64,000 bases of DNA from Corynebacterium singulare (lineage in GTDB: Bacteria > Actinomycetota > Actinomycetes > Mycobacteriales > Mycobacteriaceae): positions 2,319,852 through 2,383,851 of the forward strand of contig NZ_CP010827.1 of assembly GCF_000833575.1 (NCBI RefSeq). The letters are read 5' to 3'. The position numbers and the translations under genes are program-made. Below, in pieces: positions 37,725-47,725 of the stretch. Within the stretch, counting starts at the first letter, position 1, and every line of letters starts with the position of its first letter. The notes beneath the pieces are model-generated. The model did no database searches. It saw only the letters and a list, made by a program, of their open reading frames with translations, and was not told the DNA's origin.

Positions 37725-37766
37725 TTACGTGCCCGTAACTATACGGGTGAGGAACACTCCAGACAA
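37725..37766 (-). promoter_or_regulatory. hlyIII promoter with overlapping dyads
   Basis: On the minus strand TTGTCT (37766-37761), 17 bp and TATAGT (37743-37738) form a good promoter. Two inverted repeats overlap the -10: TTACG-TGCC-CGTAA (37725-37738) and CCCGT-AACTAT-ACGGG (37732-37747). A repressor bound there would block transcription. No regulator gene adjoins it. Confidence 0.5.
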
Positions 37767-37845
37767 GACTAAAAGCAAAGTTACCGCCGTATTTTCTACC
37801 GATTGCCACAGATCGAGAGCCCTGGCCACATACACTACGCACAGT

Positions 37846-38883
37846 ATGTTTTCCTATTTCTCACACTCGCGCCGCACCACGGCTTTGCTCGCAGCCGCCA
37901 TGGTGGCGCTGGGGGCGACGTCGGCAAGCATCGGCCCTGCCTCCGCACAGTCCAGCACGATCGGTGAGGCTTCCTCGCGCGTGACCAACCCGCAACCCTG
38001 GCTTGGCAACAAGCCTTTCATCACCTCAAAGCGCCACGTGCACGGCAACCACTGGGTGGTGGACGTGTGGTCCCCGGCCAACCGTGCGGTGATTTCCAAT
38101 AACGTCCTCCTCCCCGCAGGCGATAAGCCCCGGCCTTCCTTCTATCTGCTGCCCGGAGTGGAGGGCGGCCAGGCGGGCATGAATTGGATGACCCACTCCG
38201 ATATCGGCAGGTGGGCTGTGGGCAAAAACGTCAACGTGGTGATGCCACTCGGCGGCGCCTACTCCCTCTACACCGATTGGAACGCCGACGATCCCATCCT
38301 GGGCGTCAACAAGTGGAACACCTACATGACCACTGAGTTGCCGCCGCTTATCGACGCCGAATTCCACGGCACCGGCCGCGATGCCATCGGCGGCATTTCT
38401 TCCACCGCTGGTGCCGCACTCGACATCGCCGGCCATGCCCCGCAGCGCTACAAGGCCGCTGCCTCCTATTCCGGCTGCCCGGTGCGCTCCGGCGCGATTG
38501 GTTTCCCCACCTCCACCGCGATGATTGCCTACGGCGGCGGCTCCTCCCTCAACGCGTGGGGTCTGCCAGGCTCCCCGCAATGGCTGGACCACGACCCCAA
38601 TGCTAACCCCGCTCGCCTGCGCGGCGTTGAAGTCTTCGTAGGCTCCGCCTCCGGAACGCCGGGCCCCATCGATGGCACCACCAACCCCGCCCAGTGGCTC
38701 GGGCCCCACGCGGTAGAGATGGTGGCCAACCAGTGTTCGGAGGAATTTACACGCAACGCCCGCAAAGCCGGAGTGCGCGTGAACCGCTACTTCAGCCCCT
38801 ACGGTTCACACACCTTCAACCTTTTCTCCCACCAGATGAAGCTGAGCTGGGATCAGACTATTGCCCGCGCTATCGGCGCCTAA
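37846..38883 (+). CDS. Secreted Ag85/corynomycolyltransferase-like esterase
   Basis: The 345-residue protein has a signal peptide ending ASA-QS (about residue 35). The alpha/beta hydrolase core has YLLPGVEGGQAGMNWMTHSDI, VMPLGGAYSLYTDW and the nucleophile elbow GGISSTAGAALDIAGHAP, in which the Ser of GISS is the likely nucleophile. The catalytic His is probably in FSPYGSHTFNLFSHQM. This pattern is that of the antigen 85/Cmt family, which moves (coryno)mycolates onto trehalose, arabinogalactan or proteins. TACACT lies nine bases before ATG 37846, so the leader is very short. The acyl acceptor cannot be inferred. Confidence 0.85.
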   Translation: MFSYFSHSRRTTALLAAAMVALGATSASIGPASAQSSTIGEASSRVTNPQPWLGNKPFITSKRHVHGNHWVVDVWSPANRAVISNNVLLPAGDKPRPSFYLLPGVEGGQAGMNWMTHSDIGRWAVGKNVNVVMPLGGAYSLYTDWNADDPILGVNKWNTYMTTELPPLIDAEFHGTGRDAIGGISSTAGAALDIAGHAPQRYKAAASYSGCPVRSGAIGFPTSTAMIAYGGGSSLNAWGLPGSPQWLDHDPNANPARLRGVEVFVGSASGTPGPIDGTTNPAQWLGPHAVEMVANQCSEEFTRNARKAGVRVNRYFSPYGSHTFNLFSHQMKLSWDQTIARAIGA

Positions 38884-39027
38884 GTTTTGACTGGTTGTCG
38901 CTTCACTGCAGACGCAAGCCCCCTTCATCACCACGACCACGGAATATACCCACTGTAGGTTTTGATTCCACTAACCCTCAGCTAAACAACTAGATCTTCA
39001 AAGTTCACGTTTGCCCGAAAAAAGGGA
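38884..39027. other. Spacer after the mycolyltransferase-like gene
   Basis: I find no gene or clear terminator in this stretch. It becomes AT-richer from 38940 onward, marking the left edge of the Abi_2 locus, whose composition differs from the surrounding core genes. Confidence 0.45.
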
Positions 39028-39057
39028 TTGACGCATGTCAAGATTCTGCGGTAAAAT
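39028..39057 (+). promoter_or_regulatory. Promoter of the Abi_2 locus
   Basis: TTGACG (39028-39033) and TAAAAT (39052-39057) are separated by 18 bp, one of the best sigma-70-like promoters in the window. Transcription should start near 39064, about 117 bases before the Abi_2 start codon. Confidence 0.6.
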
Positions 39058-39063
39058 TTTGGT

Positions 39064-39165
39064 TAATAGTTCAGCCCGCCCGGTTCCCTTCGGAAACACG
39101 GAGTGGGCTGGATCTCTATTTGCGCAGTGTCGCCAACACTGTCGCCGTGGCAACACATCCCACCT
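39064..39165 (+). ncRNA. Candidate structured leader/small RNA of the Abi_2 locus
   Basis: Three stem-loops can be drawn between the promoter and the Abi_2 gene. The first is long: CAGCCC (39072-39077) pairs with GGGCTG (39105-39110), with inner CCG/CGG and GTTCC/GGAAAC pairings closed by a CTTC loop. The second is CAGTGT (39125-39130) with ACACTG (39136-39141). The third, weaker, is GTGG with CCAC (39147-39162). No reading frame fits the stretch. I recall reports that AbiF-type HEPN proteins can have associated small RNAs, but I cannot check this. It may equally be a simple 5' leader. Confidence 0.4.
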
Positions 39166-39180
39166 CTAGATTGGCTTTTC

Positions 39181-40139
39181 ATGTCTTCTACGCTCAAGCC
39201 AGCAGCGACCATTGGCGAACACATTCTTCGTCTTCAAAGCCGCGGCATGAAGATCGACAGAGCTTTAGCTGAACAATGGTTTTCACACGTCAGCTACTAC
39301 CGGCTTTCCGCCTATTGGTATCCGGCTAGACAGTTCACTGAAGACGGAACTAGCCGAATTAGCAGCTTCGTCGATGGTACTGACTTTGCCGACGTCGTCT
39401 CCTTATATGAAGCCGATCGGAAACTCCGTACCCTGATTCATGATGGTATGGAGCGAATCGAGGTTGCGATGCGCACCAAGATAATCGAGTTGCTGTGTGC
39501 TCGACACCCGGGTGATCCTACCTTCTACCTCAAATCAGACGACTTTCGGCCAAACTTTGACCACGTGTCGTGGCTGAGTACAGCGTACGGTCGGCTTGCG
39601 AGAGCAAAGAAGAGCGACGCCGTGAAGCACTACATTGATGAATACGGTGGACAGTATCCCATGTGGGTTGTGGCTGAAGTGCTCGACTTTTCGGACATTT
39701 CAAAGCTCTATGCAGAATTGGATCCAACGATCAACGTTCGATTTCGGAAGCGCTGGATATCAAAATCAACTTCTCTAGTTTGAATAGGAATCAGAAGCAA
39801 AGACTTACGAAGAAACATCCGCTGGCGAGTTGGCTCGAGCAGCTAACTGTCATTCGGAATACATGTGCCCACCATGGAAGGCTGTGGAATCGTTCATTTG
39901 CTCCGGCTCCAACTGAGGTTATCCGGAACAATGGAAACCTACACATCCTTCCAGAGAATCAAAGTGAAAAGCTATTCGGTGCTTTAATAATCATGGCGCA
40001 TTTGCTGCGGACCGTGCCTCCCGGAACCACGTGGCCTGAAAAAGTAGTGGCCTTGTTAAATGAGCACTTCCTCACCAATCCTCTTGTCGAAAAAGCCAGT
40101 ATCGGTGTTCACGGCAACTGGGATGGAGAAACACTTTAG
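39181..40139 (+). pseudogene. Abi_2/AbiF-type HEPN abortive-infection protein, frameshifted
   Basis: The first part (from ATG 39181) has the Abi_2 opening: IGEHILRLQSRGMKIDRALAEQWFSHVSYYRLSAYWYP, then DVVSLYEADRKLRTLIHDGMERIEVAMRTKI. The second part, in another frame, has SWLEQLTVIRNTCAHHGRLWNRSF with the HEPN ribonuclease motif R-x4-H (RNTCAH). The frame changes near 39725-39729; one missing base there (for example one A of an AAA) would restore a continuous protein of about 319 residues. Family members protect against phage by halting growth. The frameshift may inactivate it, be a sequencing error, or allow two polypeptides. Low GC suggests transfer. Confidence 0.8.
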
Positions 40140-40149
40140 ATGACTCAGA

Positions 40150-40179
40150 AAACGGAAAAAGCCCGGCCGAAGCCGGGCT
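40150..40179 (-). terminator. Terminator after purL
   Basis: On the minus strand AGCCCGGC-TTCG-GCCGGGCT is a perfect eight-pair stem with a UUCG loop followed by TTTTTCC. It lies 37 bases after the purL stop and also faces the end of the Abi_2 gene. Confidence 0.85.
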
Positions 40180-40216
40180 GATGCAGCGTCAACGCTGCTG
40201 AGCGGAACTGTGTGTT

Positions 40217-42508
40217 TTACTCTACGACGGAGTTGGCACCCACCGCGTGACCAAAGAGCAGCGGCAAGGTAGCAGACCAAGCCTCGCGCAGCGCGGCGAC
40301 GGCAATGGATTCTTCGCCGAGCTCCAACTCGCCCGTATCGGTGGTTTCACCGACGACGACGGCCGGCACGCCGCACTCCTCAGCGCGGTGCAGCAGGGTG
40401 TCGACGCGGTCTGCGGTCGTGGCGACGAGCACGCGGGAGGCCGACTCGGAGAAAGCAGCCACGAAGGCATCCTCATGCACCTTCGACAGGTCGAGCTTCA
40501 GGCCGGTACCGCTATTCTTTGCCATCTCAAACGCAGTGACGGCAAGGCCGCCCTCAGAAATGTCGTGCGCTGCGGTCACGCCCTCATTGCCCACGAAGAA
40601 GTCCGCGAGGCGCATCTCATTGGCCAGGTCCACCTGCGGCGGCAGGCCATTGAGTCCTGTATCCGTGTTTGCTTCGTCGGCGCTCACCTGCTGCCAGATG
40701 GAGCCACCGAATTCGTCCTTGGTCTCGCCCAAGAGGACCAGCACTTCCGGCTCCTCAACGAGGCCGAGCTCGTTGCCGATGGTTTTGTGGACGTCATCGA
40801 TAACGCCGAGGACACCCACGACGGGCGTCGGCAAGATCGGCTCCTCACCGGTCTGGTTGTAGAAGGACACGTTGCCGCCAGAGACGGGGATGCCGAGTTC
40901 CACGGCGCCATCGGCAAGGCCATGCACGGACTCACGGAACTGCCACATGACGTCCGGGTTCTCCGGGGAACCGTAGTTAAGGCAGTTGGTGATGGCGACG
41001 GGGCGGGCACCGGTCACAGCAACGTTGCGGTAGGCCTCCGCCAGCGCCAGGCGCGCGCCCATGTTCGGATCCAGCTTGGTGTAACGGCCAGACGCATCCG
41101 CGGAGACGGCCACGCCACGGCTGGTTTCCTCATCGATGCGCAGCACACCGGCGTTGGCGTGCTGGGCCTGCACGGTGTTGCCGCGCACATAGCGGTCATA
41201 CTGATTCGTGATGAAATCACGCGAGCACAGCGCCGGGGAGGCCACGAGCTTAGTCAGCGCCTGCACGAGGCCGTGCTTCTCGACGCCCTGGAATTCCTGC
41301 AGCGCATCCTGCCATTCCGGACGGGCGTAGGGGCGATCATAAACCGGACCCTCGTTCGCAATGGTGTGGGCCGGTGCGTCGACGACGACCTCGCCCTGGT
41401 GGCGGATGATGAGGTGCTTGCCGGTGGTGACCTCACCAATCTCAGCGCAGGTAACGTCCCAGTGCGCACAGATTTCCTTGAACTTCTCCACGTTCTCCGG
41501 GGTCACCACGGCGCACATGCGCTCCTGGGACTCGGAGGCGAGGATCTCCGCGGCGGACATGTCCTTGGCGCGCAGCGGCACGTTGTCGAGGTTGATCTCC
41601 ATGCCACCGTCACCGGAGGCAGCCAACTCGGACGTGGCGCAGGCCAGGCCCGCACCGCCCAAGTCTTGGATGCCGACGACGATGCCGGACTTGTACAGGT
41701 CCAGGCAGCACTCGATGAGGACCTTTTCTGCAAACGGGTCACCGACCTGCACGGCCGGCAGCTTGCGCTCCGCGCCGTCCTCGAAGGTGTCAGACGCCAG
41801 CACGGACACACCGCCAATGCCATCCAGGCCGGTGCGGGAACCAAAAAGCATGACCTTGTTGCCGGTACCCGAGGCAAAGGCCAGTTTGAGATCCTCCACC
41901 TTCAGGGTACCCACACACAGGGCGTTAACCAGCGGGTTTCCAGCATAGGACTCGTCGAAGACGGTTTCACCACCAATGTTGGGCAGGCCCAAGCAGTTGC
42001 CGTAGTGCGAAATACCGTCGACAACACCGGGGAGAACGCGCTTGGTATCGGGGGCATCGGCAGCGCCGAAGCGCAGCTGGTCCATCACGGCAATGGGGCG
42101 AGCACCCATGGCCATGATGTCGCGGACGATGCCGCCCACACCAGTGGCCGCGCCTTGGTGCGGCTCCACGTACGAGGGGTGGTTGTGGCTTTCGACGCGG
42201 AAGGTCACGGCGTTGCCGTCTCCGATGTCGACCACACCAGCGTTCTCACCAATGCCAGCAAGAATCTTCGATCCCATCTCCTCGGTCATGGTTTCACCGA
42301 AGTAGCGCAGGTGCGTCTTGGAAGACTTGTAGGAGCAGTGCTCCGACCACATCACGGAGTACATGGTCAGCTCGGCGTCGGTAGGACGGCGGCCCAGAAT
42401 CTCGCGGATGCGGGCGTACTCGTCGTCCTTGAGGCCCAGGTCGCGGTAGGGCTGTTCAATATCCGACTGCTGGGTAGCCTGCTCAACGGTGTCGTTGTGT
42501 ACGGTCAT
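40217..42508 (-). CDS. purL: Phosphoribosylformylglycinamidine synthase subunit PurL
   Basis: The 763-residue synthetase subunit is the small (non-fused) PurL. With PurQ and PurS it converts FGAR to [26 protein letters not shown] is the N-terminal signature and [21 protein letters not shown] the first nucleotide segment. [19 protein letters not shown] and [17 protein letters not shown] are the paired ATP-grasp-like glycine motifs. I chose ATG 42508, with AAGGAG upstream, instead of a start 23 codons earlier inside purQ. The gene is the last of purS-purQ-purL. Confidence 0.97.
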
Positions 42509-42542
42509 GGTTTCTCCTTGTTCCCTTTCAGCCGCCGGCGAT

Positions 42543-43211
42543 TTAGGCCCTGGCCAGGGTGTTGATGGCGGACACAAACAAGCCCAGACCGTCGGTGGAC
42601 GGTCCGGTCAGCAGATCAATAGCGTGCTCTGGGTGCGGCATGAGGCCCACGACGTTGCCGGCCTCATTGGTGATACCCGCAATGTCATTGATGGAGCCAT
42701 TGAAGTTCTCGGTGTAGCGGAAGACCACGCGGCCCTCGCCCTCGAGGCGCTCTACGGTTTCGGCATCCGCCTGGAAGCGGCCCTCACCGTGCTTGGCGGG
42801 GATAAGGATGCGCTGGTTCTTCTCGAACTCGCTGGTCCACGCGGTCTCCGCGTTCGCCACCTCGAGGTACGTGTCCACGCAGTGGAAGTGGAGGCCCTGG
42901 TTACGGGTTAAAGCGCCGGGCAGCAAACCGGCCTCAGTCAGAATCTGAAAGCCGTTGCAGATACCGAGCACCGGCATACCCTTATTTGCTGCATCGACGA
43001 CCGCACGCATCACCGGAGCCAGCGCCGAAATCGCGCCGGAACGCAGGTAGTCACCGTAGGAGAAGCCGCCAGGAACCACGACGGCATCGACGCCGCGCAG
43101 GTCTTCATCCGCGTGCCACAGGGACACCATCTCGGCGCCGGCGGTGCGGGCGGCGCGGGCCGCGTCTACGTCATCAAGCGTGCCCGGGAAGGTAATAACG
43201 CCGATCTTCAT
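42543..43211 (-). CDS. purQ: Phosphoribosylformylglycinamidine synthase subunit PurQ
   Basis: The 222-residue glutaminase subunit supplies ammonia to PurL. It is a class I amidotransferase: [19 protein letters not shown] precedes the catalytic Cys in [21 protein letters not shown], and the His/Glu pair is in [13 protein letters not shown]. Its ATG shares a base with the purS stop (TAATG), so translation is coupled. Confidence 0.97.
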
Positions 43212-43559: not shown

Positions 43560-43669
43560 AATCGCATCTTAACTCCCAGCTCGTTCTCAGCTCTCCGGTA
43601 TCGCACCAGCTACCCAGCGGGTAGAACGAGATGCACAATCACTCATCTCCCCGACTCAAGGATTGTCTC

Positions 43670-46600
43670 ATGCATCTCAAGCGAATTGGCTCGCTCGCCA
43701 TCGCCGCGCTGGTTTCCACCTGCGTGGTAGTCCCTCAGGCCACTGCCGCGGTGGATGGCTCCACCGCTGTCATCTCCGAGGTCTATGGTGGCGGCGGCAA
43801 CAAGGGCGCCCCCTTCACCAATGACTTCATCGAGCTCTACAACCCGACTAACTCCCCCATCGACCTCACCGGCTGGTCTGTGGAGTACTTCTCCTCCAAG
43901 GGCAACTCCGGCGGAAAGACCGCCCTGTCCGGCTCCATCCCGGCCAGCGGGCACTACCTCATCCAGGAAGGTGGCGGCGGCACCGGTGAACCGCTTCCCA
44001 CCCCGGATGCGGAGGGCAGCCTGAACATGTCCGGTTCCAAGGGCTCGGTCAAGCTGTACGACGCCTCCGGGGCCGAGGTTGACGTGGTGGGGTACGGCGC
44101 GGCGTCGATAAGCGAAGGCTCTCCCACCCCCGCCCTGAGCAACACGACCTCCACACAGCGCAACGCAGCCGGCGCGGACACCGACGACAACTCCGCTGAC
44201 TTCAGCACGGGCGCCCCAACACCGAAGTCTGCAGGCGGCGACACAACCAACCCTGAACCGCCAGCCCCAGAACCACAGCCGGACCCGGTCGAGCCGGGCG
44301 CGACCGTGACCATCCCGGAGATCCAGGGCACCGGCACGGAGTCCCCGCTCAAGGGCCAGAACGTGACCACTCAGGGCGTTGTCACCGCCGTGTGGCAGGG
44401 CGAGAAGTCCCTCAATGGCTTCACCATCCAGACCCCGGGAACGGGCGACGCCGCACCGGCAGAGGCCTCTGAGGCTGTCTTCGTCTACACCGGCGGCACC
44501 GGCTTCTACCCAAAGATTGGGGAATCCGTCGAGGTCACCGGTTCCGTCGACGAGTACTACGGCCAGACCCAGGTGGTCCTGTCCTCGGGCTCCGTCCTCG
44601 AGACTGCACTCGATCCCGTAACCCCGCTTGCCATCGATGCCCTGCCGGAGGGCGACGAGGCTCGAGAGAAGCTCGAGTCCATGCTGCTCAAGCCGGGCGT
44701 GCACACAGTGACGGATAACTACGGCCTCAACCGCTACGGCGAGTTGGGCCTAGCCCCGGGCACTGAGGCACTGCGCCAGCCCACCGACAAGTTCGCGCCC
44801 GGCTCCCCGGAGATGCACGCCCTCGAGGAGTCCAACGCTGCGAAGTACGTCATCCTGGATGACGGCTCCACCCGTGACTTCACCCGCGATGGCGCCTCCA
44901 CCAAGCTGCCGTACATCATGCAAAACGGCTCGGATGTGAAGACCATCCGTACCACCAACCAGGTGGAGTTCGCCGAGTCTGGCGTTATCTTGGGCTACGG
45001 GCACGACCAGTGGCGCTTCCAGCCCACCACGCTGATTACCGGTGACTCCGCCACCGCTGACCTGCCAATCACCTGGGATCCGGCACGCCCGGAGGCCCCA
45101 CAGGTGGCCGGCGATTACACCGTTGCTGCGTTTAACGTCCTCAACTTCTTCATCAACCTGGGTGAGGACAACGGTGCGAAGTCCTATAAGGACCGCTTTG
45201 GCAACGGCGTGGGTTCTGACAGCGGTACGTTCCGTGGCGCGTGGTCTGCCTCCGCATTTGAGGACCAGAAGGGCAAGATCCTCACTGCGCTGGAGGGACT
45301 CGACGCCGATGTCATCGGCCTGTCTGAGATTGAGAACGCCGCCAACACCGTGGGCGGTTCCTACGATGACGCCGTGAAGTACCTCGTGGGCGAGCTCAAC
45401 TCCCGCGCAGGTTCCGAGGTGTGGGATTACGTCAAGGCCCCGGCGAACTCCGCGGCGGACACGGATGTCATCCGCACCGCGATCATCTACAAGAAGGACC
45501 GCGTCGAGCCAGTAGGTGAGGCCACCTTGCTGGAGGACGAGCGTTTCAAAGGCACCGCCCGCACCCCGCTGGCTGCCGAGTTCGTGCCGGTGCAGGATAA
45601 GTGCGCTGCTGAGGGTCCGGATTCCTTCGTTGTGGTCACCAACCATTTCAAGTCCAAAGGTTCGGTAGCTAACGGCGACAAGGACACCGGCGATGGCCAG
45701 GGCAACAACCCCAACGTGCGCAATGCCCACGCCCAGGCTGTCCTCGATGGCTTGGCGAAGCAGCCGCAGTGGCAGGAGAAGGCAACCTTCGTCATGGGTG
45801 ACCTGAACACTTACTCCAAGGAAGACGCCATCTCGATCTTCCGCAACGCGGGCTACACCATCCCGGTCGAGGAGCTCAACCCGGAGACTGAGTGGCAGGC
45901 CGTCGCGTCCTACCAGTTCTCCGGCCGCATCGGCTCCCTCGACCACATCCTGGCCAACGAGCACGTCGACGCGGAGGCTGCGCAGACCTGGAACATCAAC
46001 TCCGACGAGCCGATTGCCATGGAGTACTCTCGCCGCAACTACACCGGTGGCGATGTCTTTGAGTCCGATAACCCGTACCGCTCCTCCGACCACGACCCGG
46101 TCAAGGTGGGCTTCAACCTCGGCACCGTCGAGCGCTCCGCTGACCAGCTTCAGGGCTGCGACACTCCCGAACCCAAGACCGTTGCTGACGTCGCCGTGCT
46201 TGACGACGGCACCCTCGAAGTCACCTACACCGACGGCACCACCAAGAACCTCGGCAGCGTCGCCGGCCCGAAGGGTGACAAGGGCGATGCTGGCCAGGAC
46301 GGTAAGGACGGTAAAGACGGTCAGGACGGCGCCCAAGGCCCGAAGGGTGACAAGGGCGATGCTGGCCAGGACGGTAAGGACGGCCAAGACGGTCAGGACG
46401 GCGCCCAAGGCCCGAAGGGCGACAAGGGCGATGCCGGCCAGGACGGTAAGGACGGCCAAGACGGTCAGGACGGCGCTCAGGGCCCGAAGGGTGACAAGGG
46501 CGATGCCGGCCAAGACGGTAAAGACGGTCAGGACGGCGCCGACGGTAAAGACGGGCGTGGCGTTGAGTCCGTAGCCACCAACGACAACGGTGAGCTCATT

Positions 46601-47725
46601 ATCACCTACACCGACGGCACCACTGTCAACGCCGGCAAGGTCGTTGGCGCCGACGGCCAGGACGGCGCCCAAGGCCCGAAGGGCGACAAGGGCGATGCCG
46701 GCCAGGACGGTAAAGACGGTCAGGACGGTACCGATGGCAAGAACGGCGCCGACGGTAAAGACGGCCGCGGCATTAAGTCCGTGACTACCAACGACGAGGG
46801 TGACCTCATCATCACTTACACCGACGGCACCACCGAGAACGCCGGCAAGGTTTCTGGCCCGAAGGGCGACAAGGGTGAGCCGGGCAAGGACGGCCGCGGC
46901 ATCGAGTCTGTTCGCATCAACGACAAGGGTGAGCTCATTGTGACGTTCACTGATGGCGAAGAGCAGAACGTTGGCAAGGTCGTTGGCTCCGATGGCAAGG
47001 ACGGCCAAGACGGTGCCGACGGTAACGCTGGCGGCAAGGGCGACAAGGGCGACAAGGGCGACGCCGGCAAGGACGGTAAGGACGGTGCCGACGGTAAGGA
47101 CGGCGACAAGGGCGACGCCGGCAAGGTCGGTAAGGACGGTGCCGACGGTAAAGACGGCCGTGGCATCAAGTCCGTGACTACCAACGACAAGGGCGAGGTG
47201 GTCGTCACCTACACCGACGGCACCTCTGAGATTCTCGGTACCCTCGCCGGCGCGAAGGGCGACCAGGGCACGCCGGGCCGCGATGGCTTCGATGGCGCAC
47301 CAGGCCGCGACGGCACCGACGGCCGCGACGGCGCAAACGGTAAAGACGGCAAGGACGGCCGCGGCATTAAGTCCGTGACCACGGATGCCGACGGTAACCT
47401 CGTCATCACCTACACCGACGGCACTTCAGAAACCGTCAAGTCCGGCGACAAGCCAGCCGCTCCGGCAGGTGGTTCCTCTGTGAGTGAGCGCTGCTTGCCG
47501 ACGGTCCTCGGCCTCACCATTCCTGCAGCCCTCGCCATTCCGCTGGCCTTCCTCGGCAACTTCGGCGCAAAGCTCAACATCCCAGGCCTTGAGCCAGTGA
47601 AGAAGCAGATTGAGTCGATCACTCGCAATTTCCCGCGTGAGGCTCAGTACGCTGCCGGTGGCATTGGTCTACTGGCTGCGCTTGGCATCATCGCCGCAGC
47701 CTGCGCGCCGACCGAGCCTGAGTAA
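43670..47725 (+). CDS. Cell-surface nuclease (NucH/ExeM-like) with collagen-like stalk and C-terminal anchor
   Basis: The 1351-residue protein begins with a signal peptide (cleavage after ATAA, about residue 27) and a lamin-tail-like domain (about 30-155, ISEVYGGGGNKGAPFTNDFIELYNP). A Pro/Glu linker and an OB-fold region (210-315) follow. The endonuclease/exonuclease/phosphatase domain (about 480-815) carries IGLSEIENA, VMGDLNTY and SSDHDPV. Residues 866-1235 are Gly-X-Y collagen-like repeats (GPKGDKGDAGQDGKDG) broken by beta modules of about 30 residues (DGRGIKSVTTND..ITYTDGT). The tail (1271-1351) has two hydrophobic stretches typical of corynebacterial surface anchors. Extracellular DNA degradation for phosphate is likely. 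ATG 43670 follows AAGGA. Confidence 0.9.
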   Translation: MHLKRIGSLAIAALVSTCVVVPQATAAVDGSTAVISEVYGGGGNKGAPFTNDFIELYNPTNSPIDLTGWSVEYFSSKGNSGGKTALSGSIPASGHYLIQEGGGGTGEPLPTPDAEGSLNMSGSKGSVKLYDASGAEVDVVGYGAASISEGSPTPALSNTTSTQRNAAGADTDDNSADFSTGAPTPKSAGGDTTNPEPPAPEPQPDPVEPGATVTIPEIQGTGTESPLKGQNVTTQGVVTAVWQGEKSLNGFTIQTPGTGDAAPAEASEAVFVYTGGTGFYPKIGESVEVTGSVDEYYGQTQVVLSSGSVLETALDPVTPLAIDALPEGDEAREKLESMLLKPGVHTVTDNYGLNRYGELGLAPGTEALRQPTDKFAPGSPEMHALEESNAAKYVILDDGSTRDFTRDGASTKLPYIMQNGSDVKTIRTTNQVEFAESGVILGYGHDQWRFQPTTLITGDSATADLPITWDPARPEAPQVAGDYTVAAFNVLNFFINLGEDNGAKSYKDRFGNGVGSDSGTFRGAWSASAFEDQKGKILTALEGLDADVIGLSEIENAANTVGGSYDDAVKYLVGELNSRAGSEVWDYVKAPANSAADTDVIRTAIIYKKDRVEPVGEATLLEDERFKGTARTPLAAEFVPVQDKCAAEGPDSFVVVTNHFKSKGSVANGDKDTGDGQGNNPNVRNAHAQAVLDGLAKQPQWQEKATFVMGDLNTYSKEDAISIFRNAGYTIPVEELNPETEWQAVASYQFSGRIGSLDHILANEHVDAEAAQTWNINSDEPIAMEYSRRNYTGGDVFESDNPYRSSDHDPVKVGFNLGTVERSADQLQGCDTPEPKTVADVAVLDDGTLEVTYTDGTTKNLGSVAGPKGDKGDAGQDGKDGKDGQDGAQGPKGDKGDAGQDGKDGQDGQDGAQGPKGDKGDAGQDGKDGQDGQDGAQGPKGDKGDAGQDGKDGQDGADGKDGRGVESVATNDNGELIITYTDGTTVNAGKVVGADGQDGAQGPKGDKGDAGQDGKDGQDGTDGKNGADGKDGRGIKSVTTNDEGDLIITYTDGTTENAGKVSGPKGDKGEPGKDGRGIESVRINDKGELIVTFTDGEEQNVGKVVGSDGKDGQDGADGNAGGKGDKGDKGDAGKDGKDGADGKDGDKGDAGKVGKDGADGKDGRGIKSVTTNDKGEVVVTYTDGTSEILGTLAGAKGDQGTPGRDGFDGAPGRDGTDGRDGANGKDGKDGRGIKSVTTDADGNLVITYTDGTSETVKSGDKPAAPAGGSSVSERCLPTVLGLTIPAALAIPLAFLGNFGAKLNIPGLEPVKKQIESITRNFPREAQYAAGGIGLLAALGIIAAACAPTEPE
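46265..46552 (+). repeat. 72-bp tandem repeats in the collagen-like region
   Basis: Four near-identical 72-bp units start at 46265, 46337, 46409 and 46481, each encoding a 24-residue Gly-X-Y block beginning GPKGDKGDAG. Further degenerate collagen blocks with the beta module repeat on to about 47375. In-frame units allow length change by slippage or recombination without breaking the frame. Confidence 0.85.

Follow-up and report, generated by a model that had tools for sequence, protein, structure and literature searches.

The abiF RNA, reportedly defined in a study from 2017, is represented in Rfam by RF03085, a model of 37 positions with a gathering score of 37 bits. AbiF from C. difficile is toxic, and the RNA encoded upstream of it, RCd22, neutralises it by direct binding, both in cis and in trans (PMC12373285, available excerpt). 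Likewise, AbiFr binds the AbiF dimer and inhibits its RNase activity, according to the excerpted part of a review (PMC12737573), and the PbAbiF-AbiFr complex is PDB entry 8vz6 (Zilberzwige-Tal et al., as cited in the excerpts of PMC12373285 and PMC12737573). AbiF is also described as the ancestor from which Cas13 arose, and crRNA function as having grown out of the AbiF RNA (PMC12737573, same excerpt). The connection of AbiF proteins with small RNAs and with Cas13 ancestry, which an earlier note on the locus studied here had mentioned, is indeed in print (excerpts of PMC12373285 and PMC12165695).

That AbiF is accompanied by an RNA antitoxin is already known; what we add here is an unlisted RNA class, a match between RNA classes and protein clades, and many copies of the RNA without a toxin gene. 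A literature search that took in neither the AbiF-Cas13e study nor the 2017 abiF RNA study yielded, among the matches listed, no leader classes other than RF03085 and no gene-less AbiF RNAs, which is no proof of their absence.

Organization of the Abi_2 unit

The stretch of DNA that we analysed (hereafter the window) spans 64,000 nt, at positions 2319852-2383851 of G000:C1, in the complete 2.83-Mb genome of Corynebacterium singulare. A promoter-like site, a leader of ~120 nt and an Abi_2 gene form one unit between an esterase gene and purL (Table 1). The earlier note had described this unit as standing alone and as richer in AT than its surroundings, and both descriptions hold: GC content is 48-53% over 38750-40250 and 58-68% in the other intervals between 36500 and 46000. 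The promoter that it proposed is also present; taken alone the site is weak, two sites with at least 9 of the 12 consensus letters having been found against 0.9 expected, but a TA...T box occurs at the matching place and spacing in 35/37 Abi_2-linked relatives. The Abi_2 gene and its leader are ~95-100% identical to genome G015, and the esterase gene and the end of purL 84-87%. Since the unit resembles G015 more closely than the flanks do, it was probably exchanged between species, of which the GC dip is a further sign. Beyond purL and two ORFs that by their appearance we take to be purQ and purS, the window also contains a 1364-aa ORF (43631-47725) with many collagen-like G-x-x repeats.

Table 1. 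Features of the Abi_2 unit and its neighbours (window coordinates).
Feature	Position	Strand	Remarks
Esterase gene	37729-38883		Neighbour on one side of the unit
Promoter-like site, TTGACG - 18 nt - TAAAAT	39028..39057	+	TTGACG at 39028-39033, TAAAAT at 39052-39057; 10/12 consensus letters
Leader RNA element, class 1 (model R1)	39062..39125	+	Transcription start predicted at the 5' end
Conserved, covarying hairpin	39069..39113	+	From alignment pairing and shuffle z
Conserved pyrimidine-rich tail 3' of the hairpin	39114..39121	+	Attenuator-like; putative function
Remaining leader	39126..39180	+	Second and third hairpins predicted, unconserved
Abi_2 N-terminal part (AbiD/AbiF type)	39181..39783	+	ATG start likely; frame broken near 39720
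Abi_2 C-terminal part	39780..40139	+	Other frame
HEPN motif R-x4-H (RNTCAH)	39855..39872	+	From sequence; RNSCCH of PDB 8vz6 aligned in relative L018
Terminator-like hairpin, purL strand	40160..40179	-	Convergent boundary of the unit
purL	40217-42577	-	Neighbour on the other side; taken to be purL from its sequence

The Abi_2 gene is broken by a frameshift

Two ORFs (39103-39783, and 39780-40139) cover consecutive parts of the Pfam Abi_2 and the PADLOC AbiD profiles. The Abi_2 domain (PF07751) scores above the Pfam cut-off in both of them (5.8e-35 and 2.1e-7), and AbiD (PDLC02344) is the only PADLOC model common to both (8.6e-42 and 4.2e-18). The domain and the RNTCAH motif announced in the earlier note are thus there, but not the single intact gene: the motif lies in the second frame, no intact reading frame exists in the window genome, and this copy is a broken member of the family, a frameshift that the note had missed. 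In close relatives at the same locus Abi_2 is unbroken; L018, from genome G015, has it in a single frame, and in the alignment the window lacks one base near 39720. Over residues 6-297, the protein of L018 aligns with 8vz6, an Abi family protein of solved structure (2.3e-30), with R-x4-H in register.

The window and L018 differ by eight silent and five replacing changes in the N part (178 codons; dN/dS ~0.2) and also by eight silent and five replacing changes in the C part (119 codons; dN/dS ~0.16). Purifying selection thus acted on the gene until a short time ago; because the changes are more often silent, the break should be either recent or an assembly error, and the latter could be the case. 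As sequenced, the locus would most likely make only the RNA, since the enzyme gene is frameshifted.

A conserved hairpin in the leader

An alignment of the leaders (A1; 36 loci in 37 rows, 36 of them distinct) was made without regard to structure. It contains 28 rows from the Corynebacterium genomes, including the window, the rest coming from named loci of Actinomycetota and from one record titled Tissierella; two of the 38 loci inspected gave no row, one for lying at a contig start (L037) and one for carrying another leader (L046). The Tissierella-titled record (L012; Bacillota) has a class-1 RNA and Abi_2 whose relatives are otherwise actinobacterial, either by transfer or by contamination, and the same leader is seen in L133 and L134.

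The covariance test proposed in the earlier note came out in favour of the first hairpin. Its pairing holds in 93.6% of cells across the 37 leaders, and 9/18 pairs show changes on both sides, and none of 500 shuffles attained these values; when the partners were slid by 1-3 columns, only 24-51% of cells were paired. This hairpin has a folding z-score of -3.8 for the window sequence and of -5.1 for L003, whereas the leader past it does not fold clearly better than its shuffles (-1.1 in the window, +0.4 in L018, -1.0 in L003 and -0.05 in L004). Of the three stacked hairpins that had been proposed, therefore, the first is conserved and the later ones, which do not recur in relatives, were discarded. 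Sequence conservation is likewise concentrated in the element: in the same-locus relatives L003 and L004, it is 95% identical to that of the window, compared with 66% for the remaining leader, 67-73% for the DNA preceding the element and 87-89% for the gene. Unpaired features are conserved as well: the element starts with AA(U/C), and past the stem comes a U-Y-U-W-U run.

An inverted repeat located directly 3' of a -10 box might also be a DNA operator. However, the wobble pairs are conserved (U-G at columns 10/59 in 35/36 and G-U at columns 17/52 in 23/36), which points to RNA rather than to a DNA operator, and the lengths of stem and loop vary and the upper stem shows paired changes; we thus see an operator as a very improbable explanation. 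We give equally little credence to the RNA guiding the HEPN enzyme to its targets, like crRNA in Cas13. HEPN domains of AbiD/F do group with those of Cas13an (PMC12165695, available excerpt), but the variable part of the RNA forms a stem with itself and shows compensatory changes, and guidance is unlikely because no unpaired variable stretch was found.

The 8-nt tail that follows the hairpin contains 4.8 T on average, and five or more in 24/37 leaders; a scan of the + strand called no terminator, and the pyrimidine-rich tail is not a strong one. Lying in the predicted 5' UTR and ending in such a tail, the hairpin could be a merely cis-acting leader, controlling attenuation or translation of the Abi_2 mRNA without acting on the protein. 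We judge this decidedly unlikely, for reasons that include the behaviour of the C. difficile RNA, which binds the protein and is active in trans (PMC12373285, available excerpt), and the distribution of the RNA described in the next two sections.

A covariance model, R1, gives the window element (G000:C1:2358913-2358976) 65.3 bits, the window being among its building sequences. Outside of training, R1 was positive for three of the six plasmid Abi_2 genes examined (in Rhodococcus and Mycolicibacterium, 53-61 bits), these six being drawn from 434 plasmid records with a match.

Leader classes follow the Abi_2 phylogeny

The window leader has no Rfam match, RF03085 included, either at gathering score or up to E 10; the five weak matches obtained up to E 10 all fall within 40140-40220. 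Reciprocally, R1 did not match any of the eight loci found with RF03085 up to E 10. This distinctness from RF03085 had escaped the earlier note. Of the 242 Corynebacterium genomes, 110 have an Abi_2 match and, with strict filters, seven an RF03085 match, two of the latter above cut-off. At three of the eight RF03085 loci (G025, G168 and G041) the gene that follows is an Abi_2 sharing only 24-30% identity with that of the window. Rfam searches of 20 class-1 loci at gathering score, and of 20 loci from other classes at E values up to 0.5, called only tRNAs, and in these searches L161, L164, L165, L169 and L170, which look RF03085-like by eye, went uncalled too.

The upstream regions of 40 more Corynebacterium Abi_2 genes, picked by hand, were sorted by eye into classes named for this analysis: 16 belong to class 2, with the pattern GACCGGUUCCGC...CCAGGGCCGGUC, two to class 3, six to class 4, nine to class 5, which is RF03085-like by eye, one is class-1-like and six are unassigned. 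To the eye, several classes are alike in leader layout, as would also suit a cis-acting leader.

A tree was built with 90 Abi_2 proteins (45 C1, 19 C2, 2 C3, 9 C4, 8 C5 and 7 other), in which the class-2 rows were hand-picked, identical proteins were entered once and pieces of ~180 residues or less were omitted. Leader class requires 11 changes on this tree, against 41.6 when shuffled, and none of 200 shuffles was as low. Leader class, then, follows the Abi_2 protein clade, which is not what an RNA acting only in cis on its mRNA would lead one to expect. The classes are not all single clades, since taken singly C1 needs four changes, C2 two, C4 three and C5 three. Three C1 rows lie outside the main C1 clade: in L112 and L127 the C1 RNA is separated from the gene by an RF03085-like leader, and in L109 by a class-2 leader together with a broken class-1 remnant. 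The earlier note had suggested a partner RNA that restrains or guides an AbiF-type HEPN nuclease; covariation and the match of class to clade lend good support to the partner RNA, while the guide role falls with the self-paired variable part.

Copies of the RNA without the gene

R1 found 85 copies, 28 of them training rows, in 72 of the 242 Corynebacterium genomes. False matches should be rare, because in a search of 396 genomes across the phylum only the window genome matched and none of the other 395 did; class 1 nevertheless occurs outside the genus, in the relatives from named loci. Using two home-made HMMs, Abi_2 was found downstream of 38/85 copies, and Abi_2 of the RNA's own kind after 36/85 once intervening leaders of another class are accounted for, own kind being assumed for short fragments. 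Among these 36 genes, 28 span over 85% of the domain in a single frame and eight are broken (the window, L024, L069, L083, L087, L094, L103 and L109). The tie between RNA and gene is not a strict one, since 49/85 copies, among them L128 at a contig end and seven under 40 bits, have no own-kind Abi_2 adjoining; these gene-less copies, too, had gone unnoticed. Outside the training rows only 8/57 copies have an own-kind gene, because gene-linked loci served for training. There is no Abi_2 match in 21/72 R1-positive genomes, with a query from the N part of class 1 that distant or fragmentary genes may escape; an Abi_2 fragment is present in G161. At L010, two RNA copies precede the gene.

We find it somewhat probable that the gene-less copies are plain relics, in which the toxin was lost first and a harmless RNA lingers without function. 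Broken intermediates exist (8/36 own-kind genes), Abi_2 remnants were found near 3/47 unlinked copies (L078, L090 and L102), and some copies look decayed or promoterless. The solo copies L100, L119 and L123 are 69-76% identical in the RNA versus 75-85% in the upstream DNA (76% versus 85% for L119/L123). The window genome itself has a second class-1 RNA (C1:331126-331182; L085 1501-1557, minus strand; 64.7 bits) with neither an adjoining Abi_2 nor a -10 box, next to what we presume is a piece of a fatty-acid synthase gene. Near-identical copies with related flanking DNA occur in G016, G073, G075, G150 and G211; all six copies lack the -10 box, and identity is 95-100% in the RNA and 88-99% upstream.

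Other observations fit relics less well. A correctly spaced -10-like box is found in 35/37 linked and 29/45 unlinked copies, against 54/1020 shifted control places, a count that left out three copies of 50 nt or less. In the 39 distinct copies that are unlinked and score 40 bits or more, 95.0% of cells are paired, as good as in linked copies, with 89 double changes; none of 500 shuffles reached four of the five measures and 13/500 reached the fifth, pairs with change on both sides, but this is not independent evidence because the R1 model rewards pairing. Both the box and the pairing would be needless for a pure cis leader. Moreover, no remnant was detected in the 1.5-1.6 kb searched for 44/47 unlinked copies (only 148 bases for L128). 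One match, at L097, was dismissed as a remnant and read as synteny, as it corresponds to a neighbour gene of L024 that is seemingly not Abi_2.

Class 2 RNA, with 74 matches in 60 genomes, behaves like class 1: at 41.8 bits or more there are 59 matches, with Abi_2 within 400 nt after 32, or in effect 30, since a class-1 RNA lies in between in two of them (L040, and L228 at 2089111). The two classes cluster, 12/42 same-genome pairs being within 20 kb versus ~0.7 expected, and some starts are only ~100-170 bp apart (G043, G080 and G207). Solo RNAs of several clade-specific classes, sometimes side by side, might provide a toxin-free standing immunity against incoming AbiF, an idea to which we assign a small chance. 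If it were true, each solo RNA would disarm one kind of AbiF arriving on a phage, plasmid or island, and the cell would be neither addicted to the incoming AbiF nor killed by it.

Two pattern scans of viral contigs retrieved five stretches (L130-L134). A long Abi_2 frame follows the RNA in L132 and L134, and the sequence of L133 ends ~150 bases past the RNA. L131 carries a class-1 RNA (2070) and, ~300 bp from it, a class-2 RNA (2372); the stretch gave no match to Abi_2. In L130 (1660-1691; phage contig IMGVR_UViG_2974565475) a class-1-like hairpin of 25.7 bits lies between tRNA genes, either by chance or as a phage mimic of the RNA. These five stretches are too weak for a claim of phage carriage of solo RNAs or of phage mimicry, and we make none. 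Separately, L128, L133 (13257) and L219 (874) have in common a short sequence, TTAA..GACAAAAxGTGT, shortly after the RNA element; at these sites Abi_2 is truncated, displaced or beyond the sequence, and the motif is perhaps a transposon end.

A model for the class-1 RNA

Taken together, the comparisons make it likely that the unit belongs to the AbiD/AbiF (Abi_2) HEPN family and carries an RNA antitoxin upstream. In our preferred reading, class-1 RNA is an AbiF-type RNA antitoxin of an unlisted class, and it often outlasts its toxin. One promoter would give a short RNA that starts with AAU/AAC and folds into a bulged hairpin, usually ending or being cut at the pyrimidine-rich tail; read-through past the tail would yield the Abi_2 mRNA. 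The hairpin would bind the HEPN dimer and block its RNase site, and class-1 RNA most likely inhibits AbiF by binding because of the homology with C. difficile AbiF/RCd22 and with AbiFr-AbiF. A phage could disturb this balance, whereupon the free enzyme would cut RNA and growth would stop. RNA classes that track protein clades offer natural RNA-protein pairs with which to approach the recognition code, and the many toxin-less copies allow a direct test of whether lone RNA antitoxins are protective against incoming AbiF.

Comparison with known systems

The pieces of the protein match the PADLOC model for AbiD of L. lactis (PDLC02344), a likeness that concerns the protein only. Type III toxin-antitoxin systems of the ToxIN kind have tandem-repeat RNA units before the toxin; unlike them, the window locus has a single RNA copy, as detected with R1, and unlike Cas13-type systems it has no guide with a variable unpaired spacer. 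As with Rfam RF03085, a short hairpin stands upstream of Abi_2 genes, although the window leader does not match that family up to E 10. The likeness to PbAbiF (8vz6), through the alignment of L018 over residues 6-297 with R-x4-H in register, comes from protein sequence and not from RNA structure. RCd22 contains two RF03085 motifs and a terminator, with a 132-nt transcript whose major end is at 98 nt (PMC12373285, available excerpt), whereas in the window a single hairpin with a different sequence precedes a broken gene and no terminator was called. In its layout, nevertheless, the locus resembles C. difficile AbiF-RCd22, with an Abi_2 HEPN protein bearing R-x4-H and a conserved structured RNA just upstream, at a predicted promoter, from which co-transcription is expected.
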